A stretch of 53,724 nt of DNA. Source: Bacillus sp. 123MFChir2. Its GTDB lineage: Bacteria > Bacillota > Bacilli > Bacillales > Bacillaceae_G. The notes under the pieces are model-generated. The model was given only the letters and a program-made list of their open reading frames with translations, was not told the DNA's origin and did not search any database. A program made the position numbers and the translations under genes. How positions within the stretch are numbered: the first letter of the stretch is position 1; the number at the start of each line of letters is the position of its first letter. Below, piece after piece: positions 2,786-17,088 of the stretch. The stretch spans positions 1 to 53,724 of the forward strand of contig NZ_KB910952.1 in the NCBI RefSeq assembly GCF_000383235.1. The letters run 5' to 3'.

Positions 2786-2939
2786 GCTTTATGAATCTAA
2801 ATATGCTATGATTAAAATTACGATTTGATTATAGGAACATTACCTTCTAAAAAATTCTTTTTCCTCTAAATGGATTATTCTCACCACTTTTTATTCCCAT
2901 ACTTCTAAGTATACGATGAGGTTCATTTATCCAATCATT

Positions 2940-3012
2940 GTTTTTGGATATCCCGATTCATACTGGCGCGGTCATCGGAGCCGTAAGGACGAAAGAGAGG
3001 TAGGGCTTTCGT
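2940..3012 (+). ncRNA. Structured leader-like segment, function unknown
   Basis: Between the carD terminator and the cold-shock-like ORF, this GC-richer block contains a perfect 7-bp hairpin (ACGAAAG 2989-2995 / CTTTCGT 3006-3012) with a 10-base purine loop. Further short complementary GC blocks lie upstream (GGCGCGG, CGGAGCCG). It sits 150-220 bases before the ORF at 3165 in otherwise AT-rich DNA. Long structured 5' leaders are typical of cold-shock genes. I could not match it to a riboswitch class I know. Confidence 0.35.
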
Positions 3013-3164
3013 TGTTTTGAGGTTTCAAAAACGATAATGAACATTTACTGTTCTTATCTTCCGTTTTAACGTAAAAACGATAACAATTTTAAATATATGC
3101 TTATATTTACTTGGTTTATATAAATAAGAGACACACCTTTAGTAATATTTTAAAGGTTGTTTAT

Positions 3165-3308
3165 ATGAAAACAACCAGGACAGTACAATGGTTTAAAAGT
3201 GAAAAAGGATTTGAATGCATGAAAGCATCAATCGGTAGTAATGTTAACAACAAATTGCATGCAAACAAGTTAACAGCGATCCAATCTAAAAATGTTGTAA
3301 AACTATAA
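3165..3308 (+). pseudogene. Degenerate cold-shock (Csp-like) gene
   Basis: A 47-aa ORF. Its first 17 residues (MKTTRTVQWFKSEKGFE) resemble the start of bacterial cold-shock proteins, which have K-x-x-x-V-K-W-F-N-x-E-K-G-F-G-F-I. After that the similarity is lost: there is no clear second RNA-binding motif (V-F-V-H-F), and the length is about 20 residues short of a normal Csp (65-70 aa). The ribosome binding site is weak (AAAGGTTG). A perfect terminator follows directly, so the unit keeps a leader, a short ORF and a terminator. It may be a dead csp gene or a small gene that has taken a new role. Confidence 0.5.
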
Positions 3309-3316
3309 GAAAACGC

Positions 3317-3348
3317 AAAGAACATGCAGATAAACCTGCATGTTCTTT
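3317..3348. terminator. Strong terminator, probably bidirectional
   Basis: A perfect 13-bp stem (AAAGAACATGCAG / CTGCATGTTCTTT) with a 6-base loop. It separates the Csp-like ORF (plus) from the small minus-strand gene ending at 3350. Confidence 0.88.
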
Positions 3349-3349
3349 A

Positions 3350-3487
3350 TTATTCATCTACAGTCTCAGTTTCATCTTTACTAATGTCATCAATAGATTG
3401 AGTATCTTTATTCTCCATACAAACCATTGCATGATAAATTTCTGCATACAATCCAAACACTTGGTACACACTCCCAAGAAACGGCAT
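3350..3487 (-). CDS. Small 45-aa protein behind the tubulin-like gene
   Basis: An ORF of 45 codons that starts with ATG after a good AAAGAGGGA site. The protein begins MPFLGSVYQVFGLYAEIYHA and ends in a strongly acidic, Asp/Glu/Thr-rich tail. The N-terminal half looks like one amphipathic or weakly hydrophobic helix. It lies 56 bases downstream of the tubulin-like gene on the same strand and ends at a terminator, so it is probably the last gene of that operon. I do not recognise a family. Its ribosome binding site and position support it as real. Confidence 0.55.
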   Translation of the reverse strand: MPFLGSVYQVFGLYAEIYHAMVCMENKDTQSIDDISKDETETVDE

Positions 3488-3543
3488 GAGAATCCCTCTT
3501 TTCAAAATAATACATTCCAAAGTTAAGGATTCCCTATCTTTCC

Positions 3544-6500
3544 TTAAACATTCGTTTTTGTATCTTCCTCTTCTATTTGAATATTAAGAAGATGTAACCA
3601 TTTCTTATATGGTGCACTGTTTGGATCTACAAATTCTTTTGCGTATGAGCGATTCCACAGTTGCTTTACAAATAAAGCTGCCTCTTTTTTAGCTGCTAAT
3701 TCTGCACCAGTCCCGTAATAAGCTTTAAAATACTGTTCTATTTCATCCACAAGTAATCGCAATAACTCATCAGAAGTTTCTTCTAACGTTGGGTCATATT
3801 TCGCTTCCTTATCATACATCAGGATTATGTCTAAAATATTATGAACATGTTCTTTTCGAAGCCACCTTATATCTTGCGCACCTAGTACAAATGAATGTGT
3901 ATACAAATGCCCTCCATACTGCAGTGCTTTTTCCTGTTCTTCCTCAAAACGAGAAATGATATTTTCATATATAAATGGATTATGAAGCAGGGCACGGTGT
4001 AATTTATACCCTTCATTCGTTACATTTTTCCCCATCGATTGAATAAGAGAACTCCGGCCCACTCCGTTATATTGGTAAACGAACTGACCATCTACCGCAG
4101 CAAGGCTAAACCAACGATATATATATGCATATAATAAAGCGCGATTACACTTCTCATAATCTAACTTCGTTTGCGTTGCATTTAAATCTGGCATAAACGC
4201 TGGCAAATGCCAATATTTATCGAGATGAGGCGTTAAATTTGATTTACGAATGTTTAATTTATTTACGCGGCGATAATACGCTTGAAAGTAGTCTCCCTTC
4301 TCGTTTACATATCCATTTACAATATGCCCGAACGACAATTTCGGAAAATCTTGTAGGGATAAGCCGTAATGGGCACGGTAACATACAATTTCATACGGCG
4401 AAAAAGCTTTATCAACGGTTTCTTTTTCTTGAAACATTTCTTGGAGCGCTTCTTCATTTAATTCTTGCTGAACAAATGGATGAATACCCCAATATTGCAA
4501 TTCACGATGATGTGCAACTTTCGGTATAAATGGACTTGCAAGATGCAATAAATCTTCTATTTTTTCACTGACATACTCTGTCATATCTCGTCTTTGAATA
4601 GTAGCTTCTTTTCGAAGCGCTTCAATAATATTTAATTCTAGCTTATCTCTGTACCGTTCTTGCAGCTCCTTTTCACAATACGTTAAAATGTGTTTTCGAT
4701 AAAAATCCTCTACTTTTCGAGATTGCCCTTCCTCCGCCCCTGCTTCTCGGCAATACTCTCGATATAAACTCATATAAATTTCAGCAGATATCTCTTTTGG
4801 CAACACACCATTGTTTACATGGTGATGAATGTCGTTCCATATTTCTTCTTGCATTCGTTCATCTGCTAATACGTATACATTTGTGGGGTTTGTTTTCCCC
4901 TCAAATTCTTTACTCCGTTTTTGAATGTCTAATAATAAGTTTTCACGGGTTTCTTGTAAATTATCAAAGAAACGCTCCCAGTATTGAATCATTTTATCTA
5001 CAGCTTGATATAAAGATTGATACACAAGTTCTAATAGCATTTCTTTTCGATACTCATTTAACTTGTGTACATATTGGGTGGCGATATCTTGAAATTCTTT
5101 TCGAAACATACGCTGTTCATTATGAAATACTTTTCCTATCCACCCTTGCTGCTGCGCGAGTTCAACACGGCGAACAGCTGTTACCGTTCCTTCAATATTA
5201 CTCACATTAAACTTTTTATCATAATTTTGAATAAGATTCCGCTTTTGCTCATTATTTTCGTGCAAACGGTTCATTTTCTCAGTTAACAATTTACGAATTT
5301 CATATAACATATACCTTGCAGCAACAGGGTGTACAGGATCAGTTTTCTTCAAAAACCATGTATTTAACTGATAGGACTGTCCTTCGGAACCACTTGGCGT
5401 AAAACGATCTGCTTCAATTATGTCATAAACTAATGTTGTGACATGCTCATGTACACGGCTTGGGATTGCATACGCATATAACCGTACCGCATGATCAACT
5501 CGTGCTACTTCTCCTTTCATTTGCTCCGCAATTTTCAACTTTGCAGCCGAAATTTTACACTCACGCTGCAAACGATTTAACTCTTCATCTTTTTGTACTG
5601 TACGCTGCACATAACTTTCTACCGACTCGAGAAACAATTTTGCCTTTGATATACCGATTTTTCCACCTTCTGCCCCTTCACGCGCTTCATAGTACATCTG
5701 TTTATAAAACACATGCGCTTGTTCTGGACGAGTCGCTAAATGTTCTAAATCCTCTAAGAAGCTCTTCCCTCGCTCTGGTTTTTCACGTTGCATACCGCGG
5801 TGAACGTCTTGCTCATATCGACTTTTCTTTTCTAAAAAGAGTCGATCTAAATGAAGCCATGATTCATCTAGCCCTTGCACCGCCCATTTCAAAGCACAAT
5901 AACGAAGCACGTTTTCATACGGATAAATAAGTTTCGCGACTCCCGCTCCGCAATATCGCGCTTTACCATTTGAATCAGCAAGTTGCTGAATTTGATTATC
6001 TTCCTGCGCGAAATGACTCGTTGACATTGGACTAAATAGTTGCAAATAAATCGTATTTGTCATTTGTTCCATATAGTCAGACAAGCTATTTAAATGGTGG
6101 CCATGTAAATTTTCATAATCATATAAAAAGCAATAATTATATGGTAAGTGGTGTTGCATTATTGTATGATTTGTACGACCATCTTCATCTACTTGATCAG
6201 GCCTGTATTCTAACTCAATTGTAACGCCCCCGCGGCGTGATAATTCTCCTGTTGATCCTAATGTAATGGCGTGTAATTCTTTTAATGATGCGTAGCCGTT
6301 TGCTTGCACTGCTTCAAACTCTTTCCCGCTTATTGTGCGCGTCTTTACGAGAGCGTCAGGAAGCAAGAAAGCCCCGCGAATTAAAATGTTGTGATGTTGT
6401 AACTTTTTTCGAAGCATTTCTCGTAAATAAAGAGCAATTTGCAAAAACATCCCCGAACCTGTACCACCAGCTAATGATGTAATAATAATAACCCGTACAC

Positions 6501-6906
6501 CGTACTCTGTTTTATCACTAGTGACCGGAAAAATTTTCTCAATTTCCTGCCAAAACGATGTTAATTTATCTTCTTTCATTGCTGCGCGAAGTGCTAAGCG
6601 AGAAATAACTCGAAGCTGACCTGCACCTTCTGTTAACGGTTTATCTAGTATCGTTGGATCAATCGGAAACCAGTCTGGGATTGTTGGGTCTTCTGCTATA
6701 TATTCGCGCGGTGTTTTACTAGAACTCGTTTGCGTCACAAATTTACGTATATGCTGAAAATGGCTTAACGTATTAATATCTGTATCAAAGACGTGCATCG
6801 CTACTTTTTTGCGCCGCTCTAGCGGAAGCTTTCGGTAAATATCATGCGTAATTGTGCTCCCAATTCCTCCTAGTCCAATTAAAATTGTTGGCACTTGAAA
6901 ATCCAT
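3544..6906 (-). CDS. Large tubulin/FtsZ-superfamily protein (Tubulin_2-like)
   Basis: A protein of about 1120 aa. The N-terminus has a nucleotide-binding start (ILIGLGGIGSTI, about residues 8-19) and, near residue 147, the tubulin/FtsZ signature motif GGTGSG. These mark a GTPase domain of the large tubulin-like family (Pfam Tubulin_2). The remaining roughly 700 residues are mostly helical and charged, with likely coiled coil around 400-700, and contain no membrane span, so it should be cytoplasmic. The start is ATG at 6906, 7 bases after AGGAAGGTGA; a GTG three codons earlier overlaps that site. The gene starts 17 bases after the VWA gene stops, so the two are co-transcribed. Family knowledge links such proteins to VWA partners and predicts membrane remodelling. 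The substrate or role in this organism is unknown. Confidence 0.82.
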   Translation of the reverse strand: MDFQVPTILIGLGGIGSTITHDIYRKLPLERRKKVAMHVFDTDINTLSHFQHIRKFVTQTSSSKTPREYIAEDPTIPDWFPIDPTILDKPLTEGAGQLRVISRLALRAAMKEDKLTSFWQEIEKIFPVTSDKTEYGVRVIIITSLAGGTGSGMFLQIALYLREMLRKKLQHHNILIRGAFLLPDALVKTRTISGKEFEAVQANGYASLKELHAITLGSTGELSRRGGVTIELEYRPDQVDEDGRTNHTIMQHHLPYNYCFLYDYENLHGHHLNSLSDYMEQMTNTIYLQLFSPMSTSHFAQEDNQIQQLADSNGKARYCGAGVAKLIYPYENVLRYCALKWAVQGLDESWLHLDRLFLEKKSRYEQDVHRGMQREKPERGKSFLEDLEHLATRPEQAHVFYKQMYYEAREGAEGGKIGISKAKLFLESVESYVQRTVQKDEELNRLQRECKISAAKLKIAEQMKGEVARVDHAVRLYAYAIPSRVHEHVTTLVYDIIEADRFTPSGSEGQSYQLNTWFLKKTDPVHPVAARYMLYEIRKLLTEKMNRLHENNEQKRNLIQNYDKKFNVSNIEGTVTAVRRVELAQQQGWIGKVFHNEQRMFRKEFQDIATQYVHKLNEYRKEMLLELVYQSLYQAVDKMIQYWERFFDNLQETRENLLLDIQKRSKEFEGKTNPTNVYVLADERMQEEIWNDIHHHVNNGVLPKEISAEIYMSLYREYCREAGAEEGQSRKVEDFYRKHILTYCEKELQERYRDKLELNIIEALRKEATIQRRDMTEYVSEKIEDLLHLASPFIPKVAHHRELQYWGIHPFVQQELNEEALQEMFQEKETVDKAFSPYEIVCYRAHYGLSLQDFPKLSFGHIVNGYVNEKGDYFQAYYRRVNKLNIRKSNLTPHLDKYWHLPAFMPDLNATQTKLDYEKCNRALLYAYIYRWFSLAAVDGQFVYQYNGVGRSSLIQSMGKNVTNEGYKLHRALLHNPFIYENIISRFEEEQEKALQYGGHLYTHSFVLGAQDIRWLRKEHVHNILDIILMYDKEAKYDPTLEETSDELLRLLVDEIEQYFKAYYGTGAELAAKKEAALFVKQLWNRSYAKEFVDPNSAPYKKWLHLLNIQIEEEDTKTNV

Positions 6907-6923
6907 GTGAATCACCTTCCTAT

Positions 6924-9020
6924 TTATTCACATTCGTACTTATATATTTCTTTTCCATAACCGCGATCAATAACAAGCATTTCGTTCGGATATAACGTTT
7001 TATGTTCATGTCCTGCTTCTTCATCTGTTAAAAACATACCATCAATCACCATACCTGATACTTGCGAATCTTTCGTCACAAATATAGATTTTGAAGCTTT
7101 TTTTGCAACAAATGTAACGGACTGTACCGTTTTCCGTTCTGCTCGAAATGGAATACCAAAATAATGATTCCACCATTTTGTCCGCAGTGGTTCTGGTTCA
7201 GATTTGTATAACCAATCTTCCGCAATCGATTGGTCCCATTCATAATATATAAGCGCCTTCCTATGAAAACGCGGACGAACCATCCATCCAATAATAAGAA
7301 TTGCAACTATGAGTAAGATGATACTAAACGGTAGAACAAACTGAAAAATGATCGCATAACGCTCGAAAAAAGGGACATCGCTAATAGAAAGTGAAAATTG
7401 TTTACTCACTTTTTGTAATTGTGAATCTCGTAATGTGATGGTAGCTTCTACGGTGCCGGTATCTGTAAAATTAAATGTGTTGGAGTAATAAGGACGAGGA
7501 TAGACGTACAGTTGGTTTCTATGTTGCTTTATCTCATAGTTGATAGATTTATGAAATGAAACAGTAGCTGTTTTCAATAATTCCTTTACTTCTGCTTCTG
7601 ACATTGCTTTATCATTCAATAGCGGTTGTATGATAAATGGTGCGCTTTCCTTTAAATTTGTTACCTTTTCTGTATAATTCGTTGTCACAACTTGTAATGA
7701 TAGTTTTGGTTTAGGTACAGATTGAATATAAAATTCTTTTGTTTGGCGATAAAACCCTTTAATATTCATGTGTACATTTCCACGTATCGATTCCTTTTCT
7801 ATCTTTGTTTCATAGTAGAAGACTTTTCGCTCTCCATTCCATTTCATCGTATACATTTGACCGTTTATTTCTATTTGAGCGGTAAAATACGAAGCATCTA
7901 CTGGTACATTTGTTGGTTTTGCTTCAATAATTACTGTTTGACCTTCATAGAATTGTTCTGTTTTCTTTTTTTTCTCTTTTTCATAAGTAGAAATCGTATA
8001 ATCTAATGCGGGTTCGACAAGAACTTTCATATTTTCCTTTGCAACTACTTGATCAATATCTACTATATAGGCACCAGGTTCGATTACAGCATTATTTTTA
8101 GACATTATTTGTGTAATACCGCCATATAGTCCCATTCCGGCCGGCGCTTGAATTGAAAATTTTGATTGTAACTGGAGTGACCCTTTTATATTTTGAATAC
8201 GATACGGCACTTTCTGAGAAGATTGATCAACAAGCGTAATCCGTTTTAATGGAAATGGTGTTGTAATTTCAATTTTGTTTTCTACAATATTTGTTTTTAC
8301 CGCTTCTTCTACTGATGAAAATGGATCACGATTCGCAATGAATGCAGCCGCTTGGTTCACACTATGAATAACACCATCTTCTCCGCTTGTAGGTAACACG
8401 ATTCCCTTCGTTTGTTGTTTCCAAATCTCTTTAAAGATGTTCATTTGCGTTTGCTCTTGCGTTCCTAAATTTTCTTCCATCGTAATTAATACCGCATGTA
8501 AAGAAACTTTTTTTGCTTCCATTTCTTTTTTAAACTTACTTAACGTTTCGGAAATTCGCTTTTTCTCACTTTCATCTTGCTTTTCTAGCTCATTAAAAGC
8601 CCCGTCTGTTAAAACAATAAGCCAAAATTCTCGATTGGCATTTACCTGAACCTCCCTCTTCATCGATTGAATTGCCGTTTCCACCGATTGAAAAGGAGTA
8701 TTCGCTTGCTCATTCCAAGTTTGAATCTTGTTAATCTCTCCTTGTCGCTTACTATTCCCTAAAGAAACTGATATCTCCTCTGCTGGATGACTCATTGGCA
8801 CATAAGAAAACGTATCCTTTTCATCTAACAATGCAATCAAGCTTTGCAGTGCATAATTGGTATATTTCCATCGATCGTTATTACGCATACTTCCAGAATC
8901 ATCATACACAAGTGAAACAACGCGCTGCCTTTCTTCTTCTCCTTTCGCCAAACTAGAAAAAGGGGTCATACATACGAGTAGCAAGAACAAAATGGATGTG
9001 GCTATGATTCGAGTATACAT
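6924..9020 (-). CDS. Membrane-anchored VWA-domain protein, tubulin partner
   Basis: A 698-aa protein. It has a signal peptide (residues 1-25, hydrophobic core ATSILFLLLVCM) and then a von Willebrand A domain with a complete MIDAS start, DDSGS at residues 40-44, and a second motif VLTDG near residue 135. Beta-rich extracellular segments follow. One transmembrane helix lies near residues 555-580 (FVLPFSIILLIVAILIIGWM), and a cytoplasmic tail of about 120 residues follows. The topology places the VWA domain outside and the tail next to the tubulin-like partner encoded just downstream. The ribosome binding site is AAAGGTGG. The arrangement recalls the integrin-like VWA proteins described beside FtsZ-like families; this link is inference from gene order and topology. 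Confidence 0.83.
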   Translation of the reverse strand: MYTRIIATSILFLLLVCMTPFSSLAKGEEERQRVVSLVYDDSGSMRNNDRWKYTNYALQSLIALLDEKDTFSYVPMSHPAEEISVSLGNSKRQGEINKIQTWNEQANTPFQSVETAIQSMKREVQVNANREFWLIVLTDGAFNELEKQDESEKKRISETLSKFKKEMEAKKVSLHAVLITMEENLGTQEQTQMNIFKEIWKQQTKGIVLPTSGEDGVIHSVNQAAAFIANRDPFSSVEEAVKTNIVENKIEITTPFPLKRITLVDQSSQKVPYRIQNIKGSLQLQSKFSIQAPAGMGLYGGITQIMSKNNAVIEPGAYIVDIDQVVAKENMKVLVEPALDYTISTYEKEKKKKTEQFYEGQTVIIEAKPTNVPVDASYFTAQIEINGQMYTMKWNGERKVFYYETKIEKESIRGNVHMNIKGFYRQTKEFYIQSVPKPKLSLQVVTTNYTEKVTNLKESAPFIIQPLLNDKAMSEAEVKELLKTATVSFHKSINYEIKQHRNQLYVYPRPYYSNTFNFTDTGTVEATITLRDSQLQKVSKQFSLSISDVPFFERYAIIFQFVLPFSIILLIVAILIIGWMVRPRFHRKALIYYEWDQSIAEDWLYKSEPEPLRTKWWNHYFGIPFRAERKTVQSVTFVAKKASKSIFVTKDSQVSGMVIDGMFLTDEEAGHEHKTLYPNEMLVIDRGYGKEIYKYECE

Positions 9021-9138
9021 GTTGAAGCTTCGCCACCTTTGTAGACAAATTCCTATGTTTAAACTTATGAGAAGAAATACAAGATATGACTTGTATTTTG
9101 AAAAACAAATAAGATTATAATATTATTATGTAAACTGA

Positions 9139-9440
9139 TTATTGAGAAGACATCGCGAACAAATGAGAAATTTCCGTCCCGTCTTCACGTAAAAAATGAT
9201 AGTGCACTGTTTCCGTGGCCGGCAGATGAAAAGTGCGATGTGCTGTTGAAAAAGAAATGACGATATCCCCGCTACCATGTGCTCCGTAAGAACCTGTGCC
9301 TTTGCCAGTCCAAAAGTCGCTCGCTTCGCTATGCGATGTGGTTGTCTATCACTTAGCGCTGCATCCGTGATTGCATTCCATTTTCCAACATTATATCTTC
9401 CAATTTTTATTCCGAGCTTACGCAATCGTACTCGTTTCAT
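9139..9440 (-). pseudogene. P1-family (DmpA-like) peptidase remnant
   Basis: The start reads MKRVRLRKLGIKIGRY...GKWNAITD, as in P1-family aminopeptidases. Directly after ITD it jumps to LSDRQPHRIAKRATFGLAK, which belongs near the family's C-terminus. After GLAK the frame shifts, and the other frame continues TGSYGAHGSGDIVISFSTAHR and ends at 9139. So roughly 200 residues, from the middle of the enzyme, are deleted, and a 2-nt insertion (or 1-nt loss) breaks the rest. The Ser-Gly-Asp region (GSGDI) survives only out of frame. No functional enzyme can be made. The native frame instead runs to 9126 as a 104-aa ORF. Confidence 0.75.
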
Positions 9441-11359: not shown

Positions 11360-13069
11360 TTATTTTTTGTTGTCTTTTTCAGTGATATATGCCCATTTAT
11401 AGCTGAAATCACCACCAAAAGTGTGAGAAGCGATGTCATGTACGTACGGACGTACTAAGAAAGAGTTACCACGTTGATATAACGGTGCAATTGCCGCATC
11501 TTTAAGTAAGATTTTCTCAGCTTTTCCAAACTGTTCCCAACGAGTTTTCACATCAACTAACAGTTCTTTTTTACCTTTTTTCACGATTTCATCATACTCT
11601 TTATTTGAATAACCCATTTGGTTATGAGAATTTGTTGTTTCGAACAGATCAATAAATGTCATTGGATCTGGATAGTCTGGTCCCCAACCACCGTAAGAGA
11701 AATCATAATCTTGCTCTGTTTCTAACTTTAATTTTTGTTTAAATGGTTGGCTTTTCAAGTTAACTTTTAATCCTGGTAAGTTTTTCTCTAATTGTTCTTT
11801 TAAGTACTCACCGATTTTCTTCGCATTATCAGTATCATAGTTTAACAATTCAAGTGTAACTTCTTCTTTACCTAATTCTTTCTTCGCTTCTTCCCAAAGC
11901 TTTTTCGCTTCTTTTGGATTATATGTTACGTCTTTAATAGAACCGCCGAATGTATCACGGAAATCTTTTTTATCTGGACCAGTTGCGAGCTCTGCTGGCA
12001 CAAGGAAGTCCGCTGCCTTAGAGCCGTCATTTAAGATAACGTTCACTAATGCCTTTTTCTCAATTCCTTTTGCAATTGCTTGACGAAGCTTCGTATTTTT
12101 CAATGGTGTATCCTGACCGCCACGTTTTTGATTTAGGCGCAAGAAGAATGTTGATGGATCTAACTCTGTTTTGAACTCCTCTTTGTTTGGTTTATATTTG
12201 TCAACATATTCCGCAGCTAACACAACACGATCAGCTTGGCCACTTTCATATAAGTTAACGCGAGTAGATAGCTCCTTAACTACGCTAACATTAATTTCTT
12301 CTAGCTTGACAGTTTGCTTATCCCAATATTGATCATTTTTCTTATATTTCCATCCTTGCTCATGCTTCCATTCAGCTAAAGAGAATGGTCCGTTGTATAC
12401 TAAGTTGTCAGCTTCTAAGGCATATTTATCGCCTTTTTCTTTTACAACTTTCTCATTTAATGGATAGAATGAAGCAAATGATGTTAACTGAATAAAATAT
12501 GGAATCGGATTTTCTAACTCTACCTCCAATGTATAATCATCAATCGCTTTTGCTCCTAGCGAGTCAGCCGGTGCTTTTCCTTCATTAATTGCCTGTGCAT
12601 TTTTCACATCATACATAATGAATGCATATTCAGCAGCCGTTTTTGGATCTAACAAACGTTTCCATGCAAAAACGAAATCTTTTGCTGTTACAGGGTCACC
12701 GTTTGACCATTTTGCGTTTTTACGAAGTGTGAATGTATATTTTTTTCCATCGTCGCTCTTTTTATGTGACTCTGCAACACCTGGAATTGGCTTATTATCT
12801 TTATCAAGGCGGTATAAACCTTCCATTACGTTGTTTAACACAATAAACGAAACTTGATCCGTCGATTTAGAAGAATCCATAGACGGAATTTCTTGATTTT
12901 CTAGTAAATTTAACACTTGCTTGTCTGCTAACTTACCCTCTGTTTTTTTGTCACCATTTTTCGAATCTGTACTTGCTTTTTTGTCCCCTGCCCCAGAACA
13001 TGCTGTTAGTGCCACGCTCATCGCTAATACTGGTGCCACTACAGCTGTAATTTTTTTCATCTTTTTCAT
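11360..13069 (-). CDS. Oligopeptide-binding lipoprotein OppA, tandem copy 1
   Basis: A 569-aa ABC-importer substrate-binding protein (SBP_bac_5 family). It has a lipoprotein signal with lipobox LTAC, Cys24, followed by a Lys/Asp/Gly linker. The peptide-binding family motif is present near residue 110 (YTFTLRKNAKWSNGDPVTA.DFVFAW). It binds short peptides outside the membrane. The ribosome binding site is AGGGAGG. It is closely related to the next two upstream copies on the same strand. No oppBCDF permease or ATPase genes lie in the window, so it must deliver peptides to a permease encoded elsewhere, or act as a sensor. Confidence 0.92.
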   Translation of the reverse strand: MKKMKKITAVVAPVLAMSVALTACSGAGDKKASTDSKNGDKKTEGKLADKQVLNLLENQEIPSMDSSKSTDQVSFIVLNNVMEGLYRLDKDNKPIPGVAESHKKSDDGKKYTFTLRKNAKWSNGDPVTAKDFVFAWKRLLDPKTAAEYAFIMYDVKNAQAINEGKAPADSLGAKAIDDYTLEVELENPIPYFIQLTSFASFYPLNEKVVKEKGDKYALEADNLVYNGPFSLAEWKHEQGWKYKKNDQYWDKQTVKLEEINVSVVKELSTRVNLYESGQADRVVLAAEYVDKYKPNKEEFKTELDPSTFFLRLNQKRGGQDTPLKNTKLRQAIAKGIEKKALVNVILNDGSKAADFLVPAELATGPDKKDFRDTFGGSIKDVTYNPKEAKKLWEEAKKELGKEEVTLELLNYDTDNAKKIGEYLKEQLEKNLPGLKVNLKSQPFKQKLKLETEQDYDFSYGGWGPDYPDPMTFIDLFETTNSHNQMGYSNKEYDEIVKKGKKELLVDVKTRWEQFGKAEKILLKDAAIAPLYQRGNSFLVRPYVHDIASHTFGGDFSYKWAYITEKDNKK

Positions 13070-13112
13070 TTTGTACCCTCCCTAATTTTCATGCATGATA
13101 CTAACTATGAGG

Positions 13113-13156
13113 AATTTTCTGATAACTCCATATTTCTATATAGTTATCAGAAAATT
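13113..13156. promoter_or_regulatory. Perfect 15-bp inverted repeat upstream of oppA copy 1
   Basis: AATTTTCTGATAACT (13113-13127) and AGTTATCAGAAAATT (13142-13156) are exact complements separated by 14 bases, 44-87 bases upstream of the oppA start on the minus strand. No T run follows, so it looks more like an operator or leader hairpin than a terminator. In copy 2 only the promoter-distal half (about 15144-15159) is kept. Confidence 0.5.
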
Positions 13157-13251
13157 TCTATTAATTAATATTCTACTGTTTTTTTAAATTTTGTAAAGTG
13201 CTATTATTAAAAAAATCAAAAAATTATTTTTTTACACTAATATTTATAAAC

Positions 13252-13334
13252 ATTCTATGAAATAAAGTGAAACTTCCATTTCATGTAGTACCGCTTATAT
13301 ATTAATCACTCTTCCAAATGTGCATAAAGAAAAG
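13252..13334. repeat. oppA-flanking repeat, second copy
   Basis: Nearly identical to 15263-15345 and lies at the same place, just downstream of an oppA stop codon. It marks the tandem duplication unit of about 2 kb. Confidence 0.75.
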
Positions 13335-13365
13335 AGGATACGATACGCATCCTCTTTTCTCATAA

Positions 13366-15072
13366 TTATTTACCTTCTTTTTCAGTGATATATGCCCATT
13401 TGTAGCTGAATTGTGAACCAACATTGTGCTTATAAATATTGTGTACAGTTGGACGTTGTAAGAATGATCTTCCTCGTTGATACATTGGTACAAGTGCTGT
13501 TTCATCCTCAAGTAAGATTTTTTCTGCTTTCGCCATTTCTTCCCAACGCTTTTTCTGATCTGTTAGCCATTCACCTTGTGATTTCTTAATGATCTCATCA
13601 TATTTCGCATTTGAATAGCTCATCTCGTTTTGCGGATTTCCTGTTTGGAACATATCTAAGAATGTCATTGGATCGGCATAATCTGGGTTCCAGCCCGCAT
13701 AAGTTAGATCATAATCTTGTGCTGTTTCTAATTTTAACTTTTGCTTAAACGGCTGAAGCTTTATACTAATTTTTAAACCTGGTAAGTTCTTCTCAAACTG
13801 CTCTTTTAAATACTCACCAACTTTCTTTGCATTATCGTCATCATAGTTTAAGAATTCAACTGTTACTTCTTCTTTACCCAATTCTTTTTTCGCTTCGTCC
13901 CAAAGCTGTTTCGCTTTCTTTACATCCGTTTTGATGCCTGTAGATTTAAATGTTTCACGGTAATCTTTTTCACCTGGTCCCACAGCAAACTTTTCTGGAA
14001 TAAGGGCGTCTACTGGTTTAGAACCATCATTTAAAATAACATTTGCTAACGCTTTTTTATCAAATGCTAGTGCAATTGCTTGACGAGCTTTCTTATTCTT
14101 AAATACTGTATCTTGACCATTACGTTTTTGGTTTAAACGTATGAAGAATGTTGACGGTTCTAGCAGTGTTCCAAATTCATCTTTATTTGCTTTAAACTTA
14201 TCAACATATTCAGACGTTAAATTAACGCGATCAAGTTGACCACTTTCATACAAGTTCACACGAGTAGATTGTTCTTTTACAACGCTCCAATTAATTTCAT
14301 CCAACTTAACTGTCGCTTTATCCCAATACTGATCATTCTTCTGTAATTTCCAGCCTTGTTCATGCTTCCATTCTTTCATTTTAAATGGTCCATTATACAC
14401 CATCTTATCAGCTTCTAAACCGTATTTATCTCCATGTTCTTTTACAACTTTTTCATTTAACGGTAAGAAAGACGTAAATGCTGTTAAGCCAAGGAAATAC
14501 GGAACAGGGTTATCTAATTCTACTTCTAATGTATAATCATCTACTGCTTTTGCACCTAAAGAATCAACTGCTGCTTTGCTTTCATTAATTGCTTTTGCGT
14601 TTTTTATATCATACATAATGAATGCATATTCAGCTGCTGTTTTCGGATTTAGAAGACGCTGCCATGCAAAGACAAAGTCTTTTGCCGTTACAGGATCTCC
14701 ATTTGACCATTTTGCATCTTTACGAAGTTTAAATGTATATTTTTTACCATCATCGCTCTTTTTATAAGATTCTGCGATACCTGGAATCGGCTTATTATCT
14801 TTATCAAGACGATATAACCCTTCCATCGTATTCCCTAAAATAAGGGAAGAAACTGTATCGGTTGATTTTGAAACATCCATTGAAGGGATTTCATTTGCTT
14901 CTACTAAGTTTAACACTTGTTTTGCTGCTAACTTACCTTCTGGTTGTTTGTCTCCATTTTTTGGCTCTGTGCTTGCTTTTTTGTCCCCTGCCCCAGAACA
15001 TGCTGTTAGTGCCACACTCATTGCTAATACTGGTGCTACTACAGCTGTAATTCTTTTCATCTTTTTTTTCAT
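13366..15072 (-). CDS. Oligopeptide-binding lipoprotein OppA, tandem copy 2
   Basis: 568 aa, with the same architecture as its neighbours: MKKKMKRITAVVAPVLAMS signal, lipobox LTAC, then the SBP_bac_5 fold with LRKDAKWSNGDPVTA. It is clearly alignable along its whole length with copies 1 and 3. The differences cluster in the middle and C-terminal lobes (for example around residues 300-420), where peptide specificity would lie. The ribosome binding site AGGGAGG and about 16 upstream bases are identical in the three genes, so the duplication included the 5' region. No permease genes are nearby. Confidence 0.92.
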   Translation of the reverse strand: MKKKMKRITAVVAPVLAMSVALTACSGAGDKKASTEPKNGDKQPEGKLAAKQVLNLVEANEIPSMDVSKSTDTVSSLILGNTMEGLYRLDKDNKPIPGIAESYKKSDDGKKYTFKLRKDAKWSNGDPVTAKDFVFAWQRLLNPKTAAEYAFIMYDIKNAKAINESKAAVDSLGAKAVDDYTLEVELDNPVPYFLGLTAFTSFLPLNEKVVKEHGDKYGLEADKMVYNGPFKMKEWKHEQGWKLQKNDQYWDKATVKLDEINWSVVKEQSTRVNLYESGQLDRVNLTSEYVDKFKANKDEFGTLLEPSTFFIRLNQKRNGQDTVFKNKKARQAIALAFDKKALANVILNDGSKPVDALIPEKFAVGPGEKDYRETFKSTGIKTDVKKAKQLWDEAKKELGKEEVTVEFLNYDDDNAKKVGEYLKEQFEKNLPGLKISIKLQPFKQKLKLETAQDYDLTYAGWNPDYADPMTFLDMFQTGNPQNEMSYSNAKYDEIIKKSQGEWLTDQKKRWEEMAKAEKILLEDETALVPMYQRGRSFLQRPTVHNIYKHNVGSQFSYKWAYITEKEGK

Positions 15073-15262
15073 TTTGTACCCTCCCTAATTTATATGTAAG
15101 ATAGTAACTATGAAAAAATTTTTAATAGCTTTATGTTTCTAAATAGTTATCAGAAAATTCCTATTAATTAACATTCTACCGTTTTTTTCTATTTTGTAAA
15201 GTTATATTATCTAAAAAATCTAAAAAATCTAAAAATTATATTATTACAGTAATCTTTATAAT

Positions 15263-15345
15263 CATTCTACGAAATAAAGTGAAACTTCCATTTCGTGTAG
15301 TACCGCTTATATATTAATCACTCTTCCAAATGTGTACAGCGAAAA
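15263..15345. repeat. oppA-flanking repeat, third copy
   Basis: Nearly identical to 13252-13334, downstream of oppA copy 3. Confidence 0.75.
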
Positions 15346-15378
15346 GAGAATACGATATCGTATTCTCTTTTTAAATGA

Positions 15379-17088
15379 TTATTTACTGTCTTTTTCAGTG
15401 ATATATGCCCATTTGTAGCTGAAATCTCCCCCAACATTATGCTTGTAAATATTGTGTACAGTTGGACGTTGTATGAAGGAAGCTCCACGTTGGTAAATTG
15501 GTGCAATTGCAGCTTCATCAAGTAATATTTTCTCTGCCTTTGCAAGTTGTGCCCAACGAATTTTCGGTTGAGTTAATAAATCTGTTTTACCCTTTTTAAC
15601 AATCTCATCATACTCCTTATTTGAAAAACTCATTTGATTATGAGAGTTTGTCGTTTCGAACATATCAATATATGTCATCGGATCTGCATAATCAGGACCC
15701 CAACCACCGAAAGAAATATCGAAGTCTTGTGCTGTTTCTAATTTTAATTTTTGTTTAAACGGTTGATTTTTCAAGTTGATTTTTAAGCCTGGTAAGTTTT
15801 TCTCTAACTGCTCTTTTAAGTACTCACCAAGTTTTTTCGAATTGTCGTTATCAAAGTTTAATAATTCTAGAGTAATTTCATTCTTTCCTAATTCTTTTTG
15901 TGCTTCTTCCCAAAGCTTTTTTGCTTCCTTCGTATCAAATGCTACAGATTTTACATCACCGTTCACTTTACGGAAGTCTTTATCATCCGGACCTTTTACA
16001 AATTCAGTTGGTACAAGATAATCTGCTGGTATAGAACCGTTATTTAAAATTACACTTGCCAACGCTTTCTTATCAAACCCTTTTGCAATCGCTTGACGAA
16101 GCTTTTTATTTTTTAAAGGTGTATCTTGTTCTTTCATTCGTTTTTGATTTAAGCGTAAGAAGAACGTAGATGCCTCTACATAAGTTCCAAATTCATCTTT
16201 TCTCGATTTAAATTTATCTACATATTCAGCACTTAAACCTATGCGATCCATTTGACCACTTTCGTATAAGTTAACGCTAGTTGATAATTCTTTTACGACA
16301 CTGAAATTAATTTCTTCTAACTTAACTGTTTTCTTATCCCAATATTGATCATTTTTCTTCAGCTTCCATCCTTGTTCATGTTTCCATTCTGTCATTGCGA
16401 ATGGACCATTGTACACTAACGTGTCTGCTTCTAAACCGTATCTATCACCTTTTTCTTTTACAACTTTTTCATTTAACGGATAGAAAGATCCAAATGTTGT
16501 TAATTGAATGAAGTATGGAACTGGATTGTCTAATTCCACCTCTAATGTATAGTCATCAACAGCTTTTACACCTAAAGAATCTGCTGGTTGTTTGCCTTCG
16601 TTAATTGCCTGTGCATTTTTCACATCATACATAATGAATGCATATTCAGCAGCCATTTTTGGATCTAACAAACGTTGCCATGCAAAAACGAAGTCTTTTG
16701 CTATTACAGGATCTCCATTTGACCATTTTGCATCTTTACGAAGTTTAAATGTATATTTTTTACCATCATCGCTCTTTTTATATGATTCTGCGATACCTGG
16801 AATCGGCTTATTATCTTTATCAAGACGATATAACCCTTCCATTACATTGTTTAGTGTAAGGAAAGACACTGCGTCCGTTGCTTTAGAAGAATCCATTGAT
16901 GGAATTTCTTGTGTTTCTACTAAGTTTAACACTTGTTTTGCCGCTAACTTACCTTCTGTTTGTTTGTCTTCCTTTTTCGGATCTGTACTTTCTTTTTTGT
17001 CCCCTGTCCCAGAACATGCTGTTAGCGCCACGCTCACCGCTAATACTGGTGCTACTACAGCTGTAATTTTTTTCATCTTTTTTTTCAT
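15379..17088 (-). CDS. Oligopeptide-binding lipoprotein OppA, tandem copy 3
   Basis: 569 aa; same lipoprotein signal (lipobox LTAC) and SBP_bac_5 fold as copies 1 and 2. By eye it is closer to copy 1 than to copy 2, for instance in the shared C-terminal DPMT/F-I-D-x-F-E-T-T-N-S-H-N-Q-M block. It lies first in the direction of transcription. Each gene has its own leader of 280-310 bases, so they are probably separate transcripts rather than one operon. Its upstream region lacks the inverted repeat seen before copy 1. Confidence 0.92.
   Translation of the reverse strand: MKKKMKKITAVVAPVLAVSVALTACSGTGDKKESTDPKKEDKQTEGKLAAKQVLNLVETQEIPSMDSSKATDAVSFLTLNNVMEGLYRLDKDNKPIPGIAESYKKSDDGKKYTFKLRKDAKWSNGDPVIAKDFVFAWQRLLDPKMAAEYAFIMYDVKNAQAINEGKQPADSLGVKAVDDYTLEVELDNPVPYFIQLTTFGSFYPLNEKVVKEKGDRYGLEADTLVYNGPFAMTEWKHEQGWKLKKNDQYWDKKTVKLEEINFSVVKELSTSVNLYESGQMDRIGLSAEYVDKFKSRKDEFGTYVEASTFFLRLNQKRMKEQDTPLKNKKLRQAIAKGFDKKALASVILNNGSIPADYLVPTEFVKGPDDKDFRKVNGDVKSVAFDTKEAKKLWEEAQKELGKNEITLELLNFDNDNSKKLGEYLKEQLEKNLPGLKINLKNQPFKQKLKLETAQDFDISFGGWGPDYADPMTYIDMFETTNSHNQMSFSNKEYDEIVKKGKTDLLTQPKIRWAQLAKAEKILLDEAAIAPIYQRGASFIQRPTVHNIYKHNVGGDFSYKWAYITEKDSK

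Follow-up and report, generated by a model that had tools for sequence, protein, structure and literature searches.

Operons that join an FtsZl1 tubulin-like gene to a VWA gene were described by Makarova & Koonin in 2010, who proposed a role in membrane remodelling (PMC2875224), and the review text of that paper already places a VWA protein of Bacillus thuringiensis, BT9727_3336, in the FtsZl1 set. FtsZl1 proteins have about 1100 aa, with an N-terminal tubulin-type domain containing T1 and T4 loops and a long C-terminal part; as a mark of the FtsZl1/Tubulin_2 family, this part is a coiled-coil followed by a mostly helical stretch, lacking a recognisable T6-H7 or FtsZ C-terminal domain. The adjoining VWA gene encodes a MIDAS and a signal peptide. 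Sixteen years on from the description of the family, the literature searched gave no function for an FtsZl1/Tubulin_2 protein with a VWA partner. In the GAP1-N2/DO-GTPase2 systems of Burroughs et al. 2020, according to the available text (PMC7159879), VWA is likewise followed by a Tubulin_2 protein, but the genes number two of tubulin type and two of VWA type, with DO-GTPase and GAP1 genes. A mutant phenotype is reported for one Tubulin_2 protein, Synechocystis Sll0445, where interruption of the gene impaired phototaxis; this protein is from a cyanobacterium and, in the accessible part of the source (PMC9880817), was studied with FtsA- and DivIC-domain proteins.

The window, i.e. the whole stretch of 53,724 nucleotides analysed, carries on its minus strand a row of genes for a 698-aa VWA membrane protein and a 1120-aa Tubulin_2 protein, then a 45-aa ORF, with the coordinates and order of the original prediction. 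With five relatives the locus forms class A, one clade with support 100. The parE gene is at most 79% identical at the nucleotide level to 60 relatives of E. panaciterrae, and several window proteins seem to resemble those of the Bacillus cereus group. The features are as follows.

9066..9090, minus strand: sigma-E-type promoter footprint GTCATAT-N14-CATA (-35 part 9084-9090, -10 core 9066-9069), 70 nt ahead of the VWA start codon
9033..9040, minus strand: ribosome binding site of the VWA gene, AAAGGTGG, present in each of the five non-redundant upstream regions of class A
6924..9020, minus strand: VWA protein, 698 aa (VWA_2 E 1.8e-6, alignment, structure model)
6907..6923, minus strand: 17-nt gap between VWA and tubulin genes, with the ribosome binding site of the latter (sequence; site found by eye)
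3544..6906, minus strand: Tubulin_2/FtsZl1 family protein, 1120 aa (PF13809 E 1.2e-74, alignment A1)
3350..3487, minus strand: 45-aa ORF, remnant-type (synteny, tblastn, DNA alignment)
3316..3349, minus strand: intrinsic terminator, a 15-pair hairpin of -18.9 kcal/mol and then a T-rich tail (folding)

By sequence, the VWA and tubulin-like proteins belong to the published FtsZl1/VWA family. The original prediction had noted that such pairs are known, with remodelling predicted and function undescribed, which matches the available account of that family (PMC2875224); the sigma-E-type footprint and the four-gene relatives treated below are additions to it. The window clade differs from the FtsZl1 set in having two genes only, no kinase/GTPase gene alongside, and the footprint.

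The gap between the two genes, predicted at 17 bases and measured at 17 nt, ranges over 13-23 nt among the five other members of class A, and we therefore infer co-transcription. A terminator was expected beyond the small ORF and is found there, at 3349-3316. The further proposal that the 45-aa protein is a new part of the operon fared worse. Its first 19 residues resemble a gene of about 100 aa at the matching position in three of the five relatives, where that gene stands behind a terminator-like hairpin; the two others have no gene there. Because of this resemblance, with the rest lost, the ORF is probably a truncated and diverged remnant of the neighbouring gene and no third component of the system. 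The three-gene operon was rejected accordingly (synteny, tblastn, DNA alignment, terminator folding).

The tubulin-like protein has a GTPase-type domain at residues about 8-345 (PF13809) followed by a long C-terminal part, and the GLGGxG (T1) and GGTGSG (T4) loops are invariant in all 14 tubulin rows, in agreement with its earlier assignment to the tubulin/FtsZ superfamily from GGTGSG. The AlphaFold model, made with five sequences, has a mean pLDDT of 39, too low for use (the C-terminal part is helical in that low-confidence model), and the putative GTPase fold therefore rests on profiles and motifs. Pfam gave no FtsZ_C match in the protein, and hhalign of its family against 14 FtsZ sequences was weak (probability 2.8). 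A PDB sequence search with the window protein had no match at E 1, and one with profile A1 returned Fis alone (E 0.17-0.44).

The VWA protein has hydrophobic segments at residues 5-23 and 557-575, with a predicted signal/anchor at 2-18 and a predicted membrane span at 556-581. The VWA domain (33-230) and a beta-rich ectodomain (242-547) lie between these two, and a predicted, poorly modelled cytoplasmic tail (582-698) follows. This is the topology first read from the sequence (signal peptide, one further span, cytoplasmic tail). The metal site noted with it also stands, since MIDAS residues D40xSxS44, T108 and D139 are invariant in 13/13 aligned VWA rows, the broken VWA gene of L040 being omitted. 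Structure searching matched VWA folds, 1sht and 8fz4 among them, with TM-scores by target of 0.62-0.63; rank 1 was the pilus protein PitA, though at TM-scores of only 0.21-0.23. Within class A the tail (51-66% identity) and the VWA domain (54-63%) are more conserved than the beta-ectodomain (35-49%).

Both genes are present and open in the window and in 5/5 class A relatives. Between the window and four of the five, pN is 0.12-0.21 and pS 0.81-0.90 for the tubulin gene, and pN is 0.29-0.38 and pS 0.76-0.79 for VWA; the pair is under purifying selection, with saturated divergence. Eight other Bacillaceae-type genomes (class B) and one remote Firmicute (G726) carry a four-gene operon in the order VWA, tubulin, c41 (a membrane protein of about 720 aa) and c42 (a membrane protein of about 1280 aa with HExxH). 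Class B has the window's gene order, with VWA 28-30% and tubulin 41-47% identical, but its upstream region is different. Since c41 and c42 occur in 0/5 class A genomes searched genome-wide, the class A pair is probably a reduced form of the four-gene system. A by-eye idea that c42 is an SF2 helicase was dropped, finding no Pfam or NCBIfam support and, in the PDB, a designed TIM barrel as sole match. Viral and plasmid origins of the pair were also rejected: the phage-labelled record MT836542.1 resembles a bacterial contig, with VWA and tubulin after genes for LPG synthase and amidohydrolase, none of 19 pattern matches of the A1 profile in IMG/VR was confirmed, and the plasmid matches are remote (7 records).

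The element GTCATAT-N14-CATA precedes VWA in the window and in all five class A relatives. Outside the ribosome binding site it is the only 7-mer or gapped 6+4 element common to the five non-redundant class A upstream regions, which likewise have the 6-mers AAATAC and AGTCAT in common. Such sharing arose in 0/1000 and 0/300 shuffles, which ignore the common descent of the five regions. The window holds a single copy, where 0.01 is expected. In 12 genomes we found 37 copies and examined all of their loci. Eight precede a same-strand ORF, namely VWA (5), spoIVA, spoIIIAA and a D-Ala-D-Ala carboxypeptidase gene, the two spo genes being known sigma-E genes; 19 lie within ORFs, and for the other 10 there is no 100-aa ORF inside 160 nt. 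The spoIVA copy is in G186 (TIGR02836 E 2e-252) and the spoIIIAA copy in G183 (TIGR02858 E 1e-120), neither of which is class A. Genome-wide the pattern is unenriched (37 copies vs 29 for the reversed control, placement being determined for pattern copies alone), and among the regions before VWA that were scored outside class A, seven of class B and 22 of class C, none contains it.

Against the sigma-E consensus, the footprint scores 11-12/15, no better than single-region shuffles (p 0.08-0.25), and in the window another stretch outscores it. With single-sequence scores at chance, the consensus score was rejected as sole evidence. ATA-type -35 and CATA-type -10 elements are found at the right spacing in the window and 5/5 relatives, and spacing and element types fit published sigma-E promoters as given in the Figure 4 legend of PMC517825 and the accessible text of PMC3789822. 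The sigma-E gene itself (TIGR02835 over cut-off) is present in 16/16 genomes searched, among them the five of class A and 10/10 of classes B and C. The conserved footprint suggests that the pair is switched on during spore building.

Our preferred reading, with a probability of roughly 0.55, is that the two genes are a pared-down FtsZl1 system which the mother cell expresses in sporulation and which sits on one of its membranes. Transcription of the operon by sigma-E RNA polymerase would be driven from the element at 9066-9090. The VWA protein would be placed in the membrane of the mother cell and, after engulfment starts, in the outer forespore membrane too, with its metal-binding VWA domain and beta-rich ectodomain outside and its tail of about 115 aa in the cytoplasm of the mother cell. 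The tubulin-like protein may bind GTP and assemble on that tail, and the membrane-bound scaffold might then shape the engulfing membrane or organise the spore envelope on it. A more specific version, in which tubulin and its membrane-spanning VWA partner form a dedicated endospore-morphogenesis machine that sigma-E switches on in the mother cell, a GTP-driven scaffold on the engulfing membrane or spore envelope in a clade that cut an ancestral four-gene FtsZl1 system to two, we hold tentatively, at a little under even odds.

SpoIVA is an NTPase scaffold of the spore envelope on the mother-cell face. The likeness that we propose, of an NTP-driven scaffold on that face, compares how the two may work and not membership, SpoIVA being of an NTPase family unrelated to the tubulin-like protein. 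The literature searched yielded nothing on a sporulation role or on a 'tubulin-like domain-containing protein', and a search through passages of a Bacillus sporulation Tn-seq paper (PMC12700454) turned up neither tubulin nor VWA.

The pair could instead be a vegetative membrane-remodelling or envelope-stress module, its upstream element serving another sigma factor or regulator. The genome-context prediction for FtsZl1/VWA operons in the accessible text of PMC2875224 agrees with this, as do the unexceptional consensus score, a 9-bp inverted repeat at 9075-9098 that overlaps the element, and the position of VWA directly upstream of tubulin throughout classes A-C (intact in 35/36 loci, broken in the 36th). 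Yet the best-conserved element of the clade has the sigma-E form, and where else it is placed like a promoter it stands before spoIVA, spoIIIAA and the D,D-carboxypeptidase gene; we judge this module unlikely.

VWA and tubulin might also be the sensor and the assembly part of an NTP-dependent conflict (anti-phage) system. This is suggested by the distant class C loci, where DO-GTPase2 and GAP1-N2 stand beside two VWA and two tubulin-type genes, matching the systems in the available text of PMC7159879; class C tubulins are homologous to those of classes A and B over 313 aligned N-terminal columns, and the HExxH protein of class B could serve as effector. But GAP1-N2 and DO-GTPase2, like c41 and c42, are found in 0/5 class A genomes, PADLOC matches none of three window or three class B proteins, and upstream neighbour genes common to the window locus and E. 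funiculus indicate a chromosomal setting, which makes a conflict role improbable.

Three others seem highly improbable. A motility- or pilus-linked assembly draws on analogy with the phototaxis defect of Sll0445, whose companions carry FtsA and DivIC domains, not VWA, in the accessible part of that source, and inspection of the window ORFs by eye revealed no pilus gene. The surface-adhesion receptor first suggested, which would signal to a polymer in the cytoplasm, here with the 45-aa protein as its adaptor, fits the predicted topology, the VWA fold matches and the low-scoring PitA match, but its adaptor resembles a remnant and the external-adhesion idea found no direct support. Decay of the four-gene operon, with the pair as its relic, would explain the loss of c41 and c42 and is disfavoured by two open genes under purifying selection.

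The sporulation-type footprint tells when and where to look, in sporulating cells and in the mother cell, and the class A pair offers biochemistry a minimal two-gene version that can be compared with four- and six-gene relatives. If the sporulation reading holds, certain spore formers employ a second scaffold of tubulin type that is missing from B. subtilis, whose control genome gave no PF13809 match, and screens in that species could not have found it. It would also mean a further use of a tubulin-type cytoskeleton in Bacilli, besides FtsZ and TubZ/RepX.

The original prediction described a VWA gene, a giant tubulin-like gene, a 45-aa ORF and a terminator in a row. This arrangement is confirmed by the coordinates listed here, by Pfam matches, by a model of the VWA protein, and by the invariant metal-binding (MIDAS) residues of the VWA domain and GTP-loop motifs of the tubulin-like protein.

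6924-9020, minus strand: VWA gene, 698 aa
3544-6906, minus strand: tubulin-like gene, 1120 aa, 17 nt past the VWA gene
3350-3487, minus strand: 45-aa ORF, 3′ of the tubulin-like gene
3349-3316, minus strand: terminator, after the 45-aa ORF

The tubulin-like protein matches PF13809 Tubulin_2 (E 1.2e-74), with GTP-loop motifs invariant in 14/14 aligned rows; the VWA protein matches VWA_2 (E 1.8e-6), with MIDAS residues invariant in 13/13. The latter has hydrophobic segments at residues 5-23 and 557-575, and its AlphaFold model (mean pLDDT 72.4) runs from an N-terminal helix through the VWA domain (33-230) and beta strands (242-547) to a membrane helix (556-581), after which the tail is poorly modelled. 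Foldseek with this model returned VWA domains, including 1sht, 8fz4 and 4wfq (TM-score by target 0.62-0.66); the pilus protein PitA ranked first, with TM-scores of only 0.21-0.23. A pN/pS comparison indicates purifying selection on both genes.

The pair belongs to an already known family, FtsZl1 with a vWA partner, described in 2010 (PMC2875224); the review text there mentions one such operon with a vWA protein from Bacillus thuringiensis. In a 2023 phylogeny (PMC9871819) these Tubulin_2 proteins separate from FtsZ and tubulin. Canonical FtsZ (PF12327) was found in all 12 relatives searched.

Other features lie around the operon. A BsrC small RNA (2938-3025, minus strand; Rfam RF01410, 83.1 bits) is about 290 nt downstream of the terminator on the same strand, and a short plus-strand ORF at 3161-3308 resembles, by eye, a truncated cold-shock protein. 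An ISL3-type transposase occupies two plus-strand ORFs (22-525 and 596-1852; Zn_ribbon_ISL3, DDE_Tnp_ISL3). Upstream of the VWA gene, a minus-strand ORF (9126-9440) has a short peptidase family S58 match under the family cut-off (E 2e-4) and is possibly a gene remnant; by translation, three tandem OppA-like oligopeptide-binding protein genes follow at 11360-17088 (minus strand).

Thirty-six loci were compared: that of the window, those of its five near relatives, and 30 more taken from two surveys. The first placed 16 of 299 relatives above its cut-off, 15 of them with a full-length protein (five of class A, eight of B, two of C), leaving out the 16th genome (a weak 355-aa match) and six genomes below cut-off; the second covered 398 genomes of the class and placed 65 above cut-off, 20 of which were taken. 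The VWA gene lies immediately 5′ of the tubulin gene and is intact at 35/36 loci; at the other it is broken. Class A is VWA then tubulin (the window, L001, L002, L003, L030 and L004), its relatives including Ectobacillus panaciterrae (L001), E. funiculus (L002), E. antri (L003) and Bacillus sp. 165 (L004). Class B (eight loci) has VWA, tubulin, c41 and c42. In the two proteins examined of each, c41 (~720 aa) has two membrane spans and c42 (~1280 aa) several N-terminal spans; a CxxC...CxxC cysteine pair and HExxH are invariant in 7/7 aligned c42 proteins. At L037:12751-18764 neither c41 nor c42 matched a Pfam or NCBIfam family above cut-off. At L040, the eighth of the class B loci, VWA and c41 are both broken and c42 is interrupted by a stop. 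Class C, counted with profiles built from L035 and L036, comprises 22 loci with a tubulin gene, VWA and a second tubulin-type gene (22/22 each), and a second VWA, a small gene and a GTPase gene (21/22 each); the L035 GTPase is DO-GTPase2 in Pfam, and the L036 neighbour is GAP1-N2/GAP1-M. This class agrees with the Firmicutes conflict systems described in passages of PMC7159879.

In the window's clade the system has probably been reduced. Both c41 and c42 were found in 0/5 class A genomes, versus 8/8 class B genomes. GAP1-N2 and DO-GTPase2 were likewise found in 0/5 class A genomes, in 2/2 class C genomes searched and in 1/8 of class B (G052, on another contig). In a quick tree class A forms one clade (support 100), the window standing beside four Ectobacillus-type rows. 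The four-gene order also occurs remotely: c42 is rare, in 1/398 genomes of the phylum (G726), and there the order is that of class B: VWA; tubulin (E 4e-111); a protein of 653 aa with two spans and a weak likeness to c41 (E 2e-5 when searched as a single target, 51 as hhalign probability); and c42 (E 2e-126). A protein kinase gene lies nearby. An Azospirillum plasmid has tubulin (E 4e-105), a protein of 710 aa with one span, an 1118-aa protein that is weakly c42-like (E 5.5e-9 in a six-protein search) and lacks HExxH, and then a VWA gene. The simplest reading of class A gene content is loss of c41 and c42. The class A state may instead have arisen by transfer, since the deep branches of the quick tree lack resolution. 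G726 groups there, on long branches, with a phage-labelled contig. L009 (MT836542.1), labelled Bacteriophage sp. in GenBank, looks like a bacterial contig; its genes include those for LPG-synthase, an amidohydrolase, VWA and Tubulin_2.

The 45-aa protein, proposed as a new third part, reads instead as a remnant of a ~100-aa gene, now within the transcript. Its residues 1-18/19 match the beginning of that gene in L003 and L030 at 53-56% identity, and it is 31% identical over 39 residues to the L004 gene. These E-values are weak (0.02-0.16), so the case leans on position too: the ~100-aa gene starts 57 nt past the tubulin gene in both L003 and L030, and farther downstream in L004. The corresponding codons of the 45-aa ORF alter Gly and Pro residues common to the three ~100-aa genes, and the remainder of the gene was not found between the ORF and the window terminator. 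No such gene follows tubulin at that place in L001 or L002; in L002, 1.3 kb farther downstream, a stretch of 30 residues matches (E 0.17). A terminator-like hairpin starts at most 25 nt past the tubulin gene in 5/5 relatives (-15.9 to -22.7 kcal/mol in four, only -5.7 in L002); the window's best hairpin there (-7.6) spans the start of the 45-aa ORF and is not listed in the pattern scan. At L003:13336-13460, in E. antri, the hairpin 3′ arm holds a Shine-Dalgarno-like stretch of the following ~100-aa gene.

Upstream of VWA the class A regions have largely diverged, and all six carry GTCATAT-N14-CATA 69-93 nt 5′ of the start codon (9066-9090, minus strand, in the window). Across five non-redundant regions no other gapped 6+4 element is common to all, and the one 7-mer that they share outside the ribosome binding site is part of this element; the 6-mers AAATAC and AGTCAT are also common to all five. 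Dinucleotide shuffles, which ignore common descent, yielded a shared element in 0/1000 and 0/300 cases. Because pS is saturated, we take the sharing as a sign of selection. Applied to the 200 nt past the tubulin gene and to five class B upstream regions, the test found nothing shared. The window has a single copy, at VWA (0.01 expected). CATAGGAATTTGTCTA lies 3′ of the footprint in the window, L001, L003 and L030. A perfect 9-bp inverted repeat at 9075-9098, AAATACAAG-N6-CTTGTATTT, overlaps the -35 part; the arm AAATACAAG is retained in 3/5 relatives and the other in 0/5.

By its sequence the footprint has the form of a promoter for sigma-E, the mother-cell sporulation sigma factor (consensus KMATATT/CATACAMT), with an ATA-containing -35, a CATA -10 and compatible spacing. 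Against the sporulation reading, each copy is unremarkable when scored on the consensus alone. Published sigma-E spacing, in passages of PMC517825 and PMC3789822, is compatible with it. Sigma-E is encoded in 16/16 genomes searched. Classes B and C have it too and lack the footprint before VWA, which also counts against the reading.

Across 12 genomes (five class A, five B, two C) the pattern occurs 37 times versus 29 for its reversed control, and is therefore without overall enrichment. All 37 loci were inspected, placement being read for pattern copies only. Eight precede a same-strand ORF of at least 100 aa: VWA in five class A genomes (L112, L113, L124, L123, L133; the last two lie inside the VWA ORF only under a longer alternative reading), spoIVA (G186; TIGR02836, E 2e-252), and in G183 spoIIIAA (TIGR02858, E 1e-120) and a D-Ala-D-Ala carboxypeptidase gene (Peptidase_S11, E 8e-74). 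Another 19 lie inside ORFs (L126 merely 14 nt in; L127 with another ORF 134 nt on), and for the remaining 10 no 100-aa ORF lies within 160 nt. The classical sigma-E genes include spoIVA and spoIIIA, and B. subtilis dacB is a sigma-E gene too. Among its own copies, the promoter-placed pattern thus accompanies sporulation genes in 3/3 cases outside VWA.

As far as the literature found shows, the sigma-E-type footprint is new, and so are the interpretation of the 45-aa ORF and the two-, four- and six-gene contrast in Bacilli; c41 and c42 may be among the unnamed families in the additional files of PMC2875224.

Within class A (four relatives) the VWA tail is more conserved (51-66% identity) than the beta-ectodomain (35-49%); between classes A and B the tail is 23-29% identical and the VWA domain 38-43%. 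In the working we propose, the mother-cell membrane would hold the VWA protein with its ectodomain facing outside, so that after engulfment the ectodomain would lie between the two forespore membranes. The tail would serve as the assembly site for the tubulin-like protein; its drop in identity between classes A and B hints that it may have been refitted as class A lost c41 and c42.
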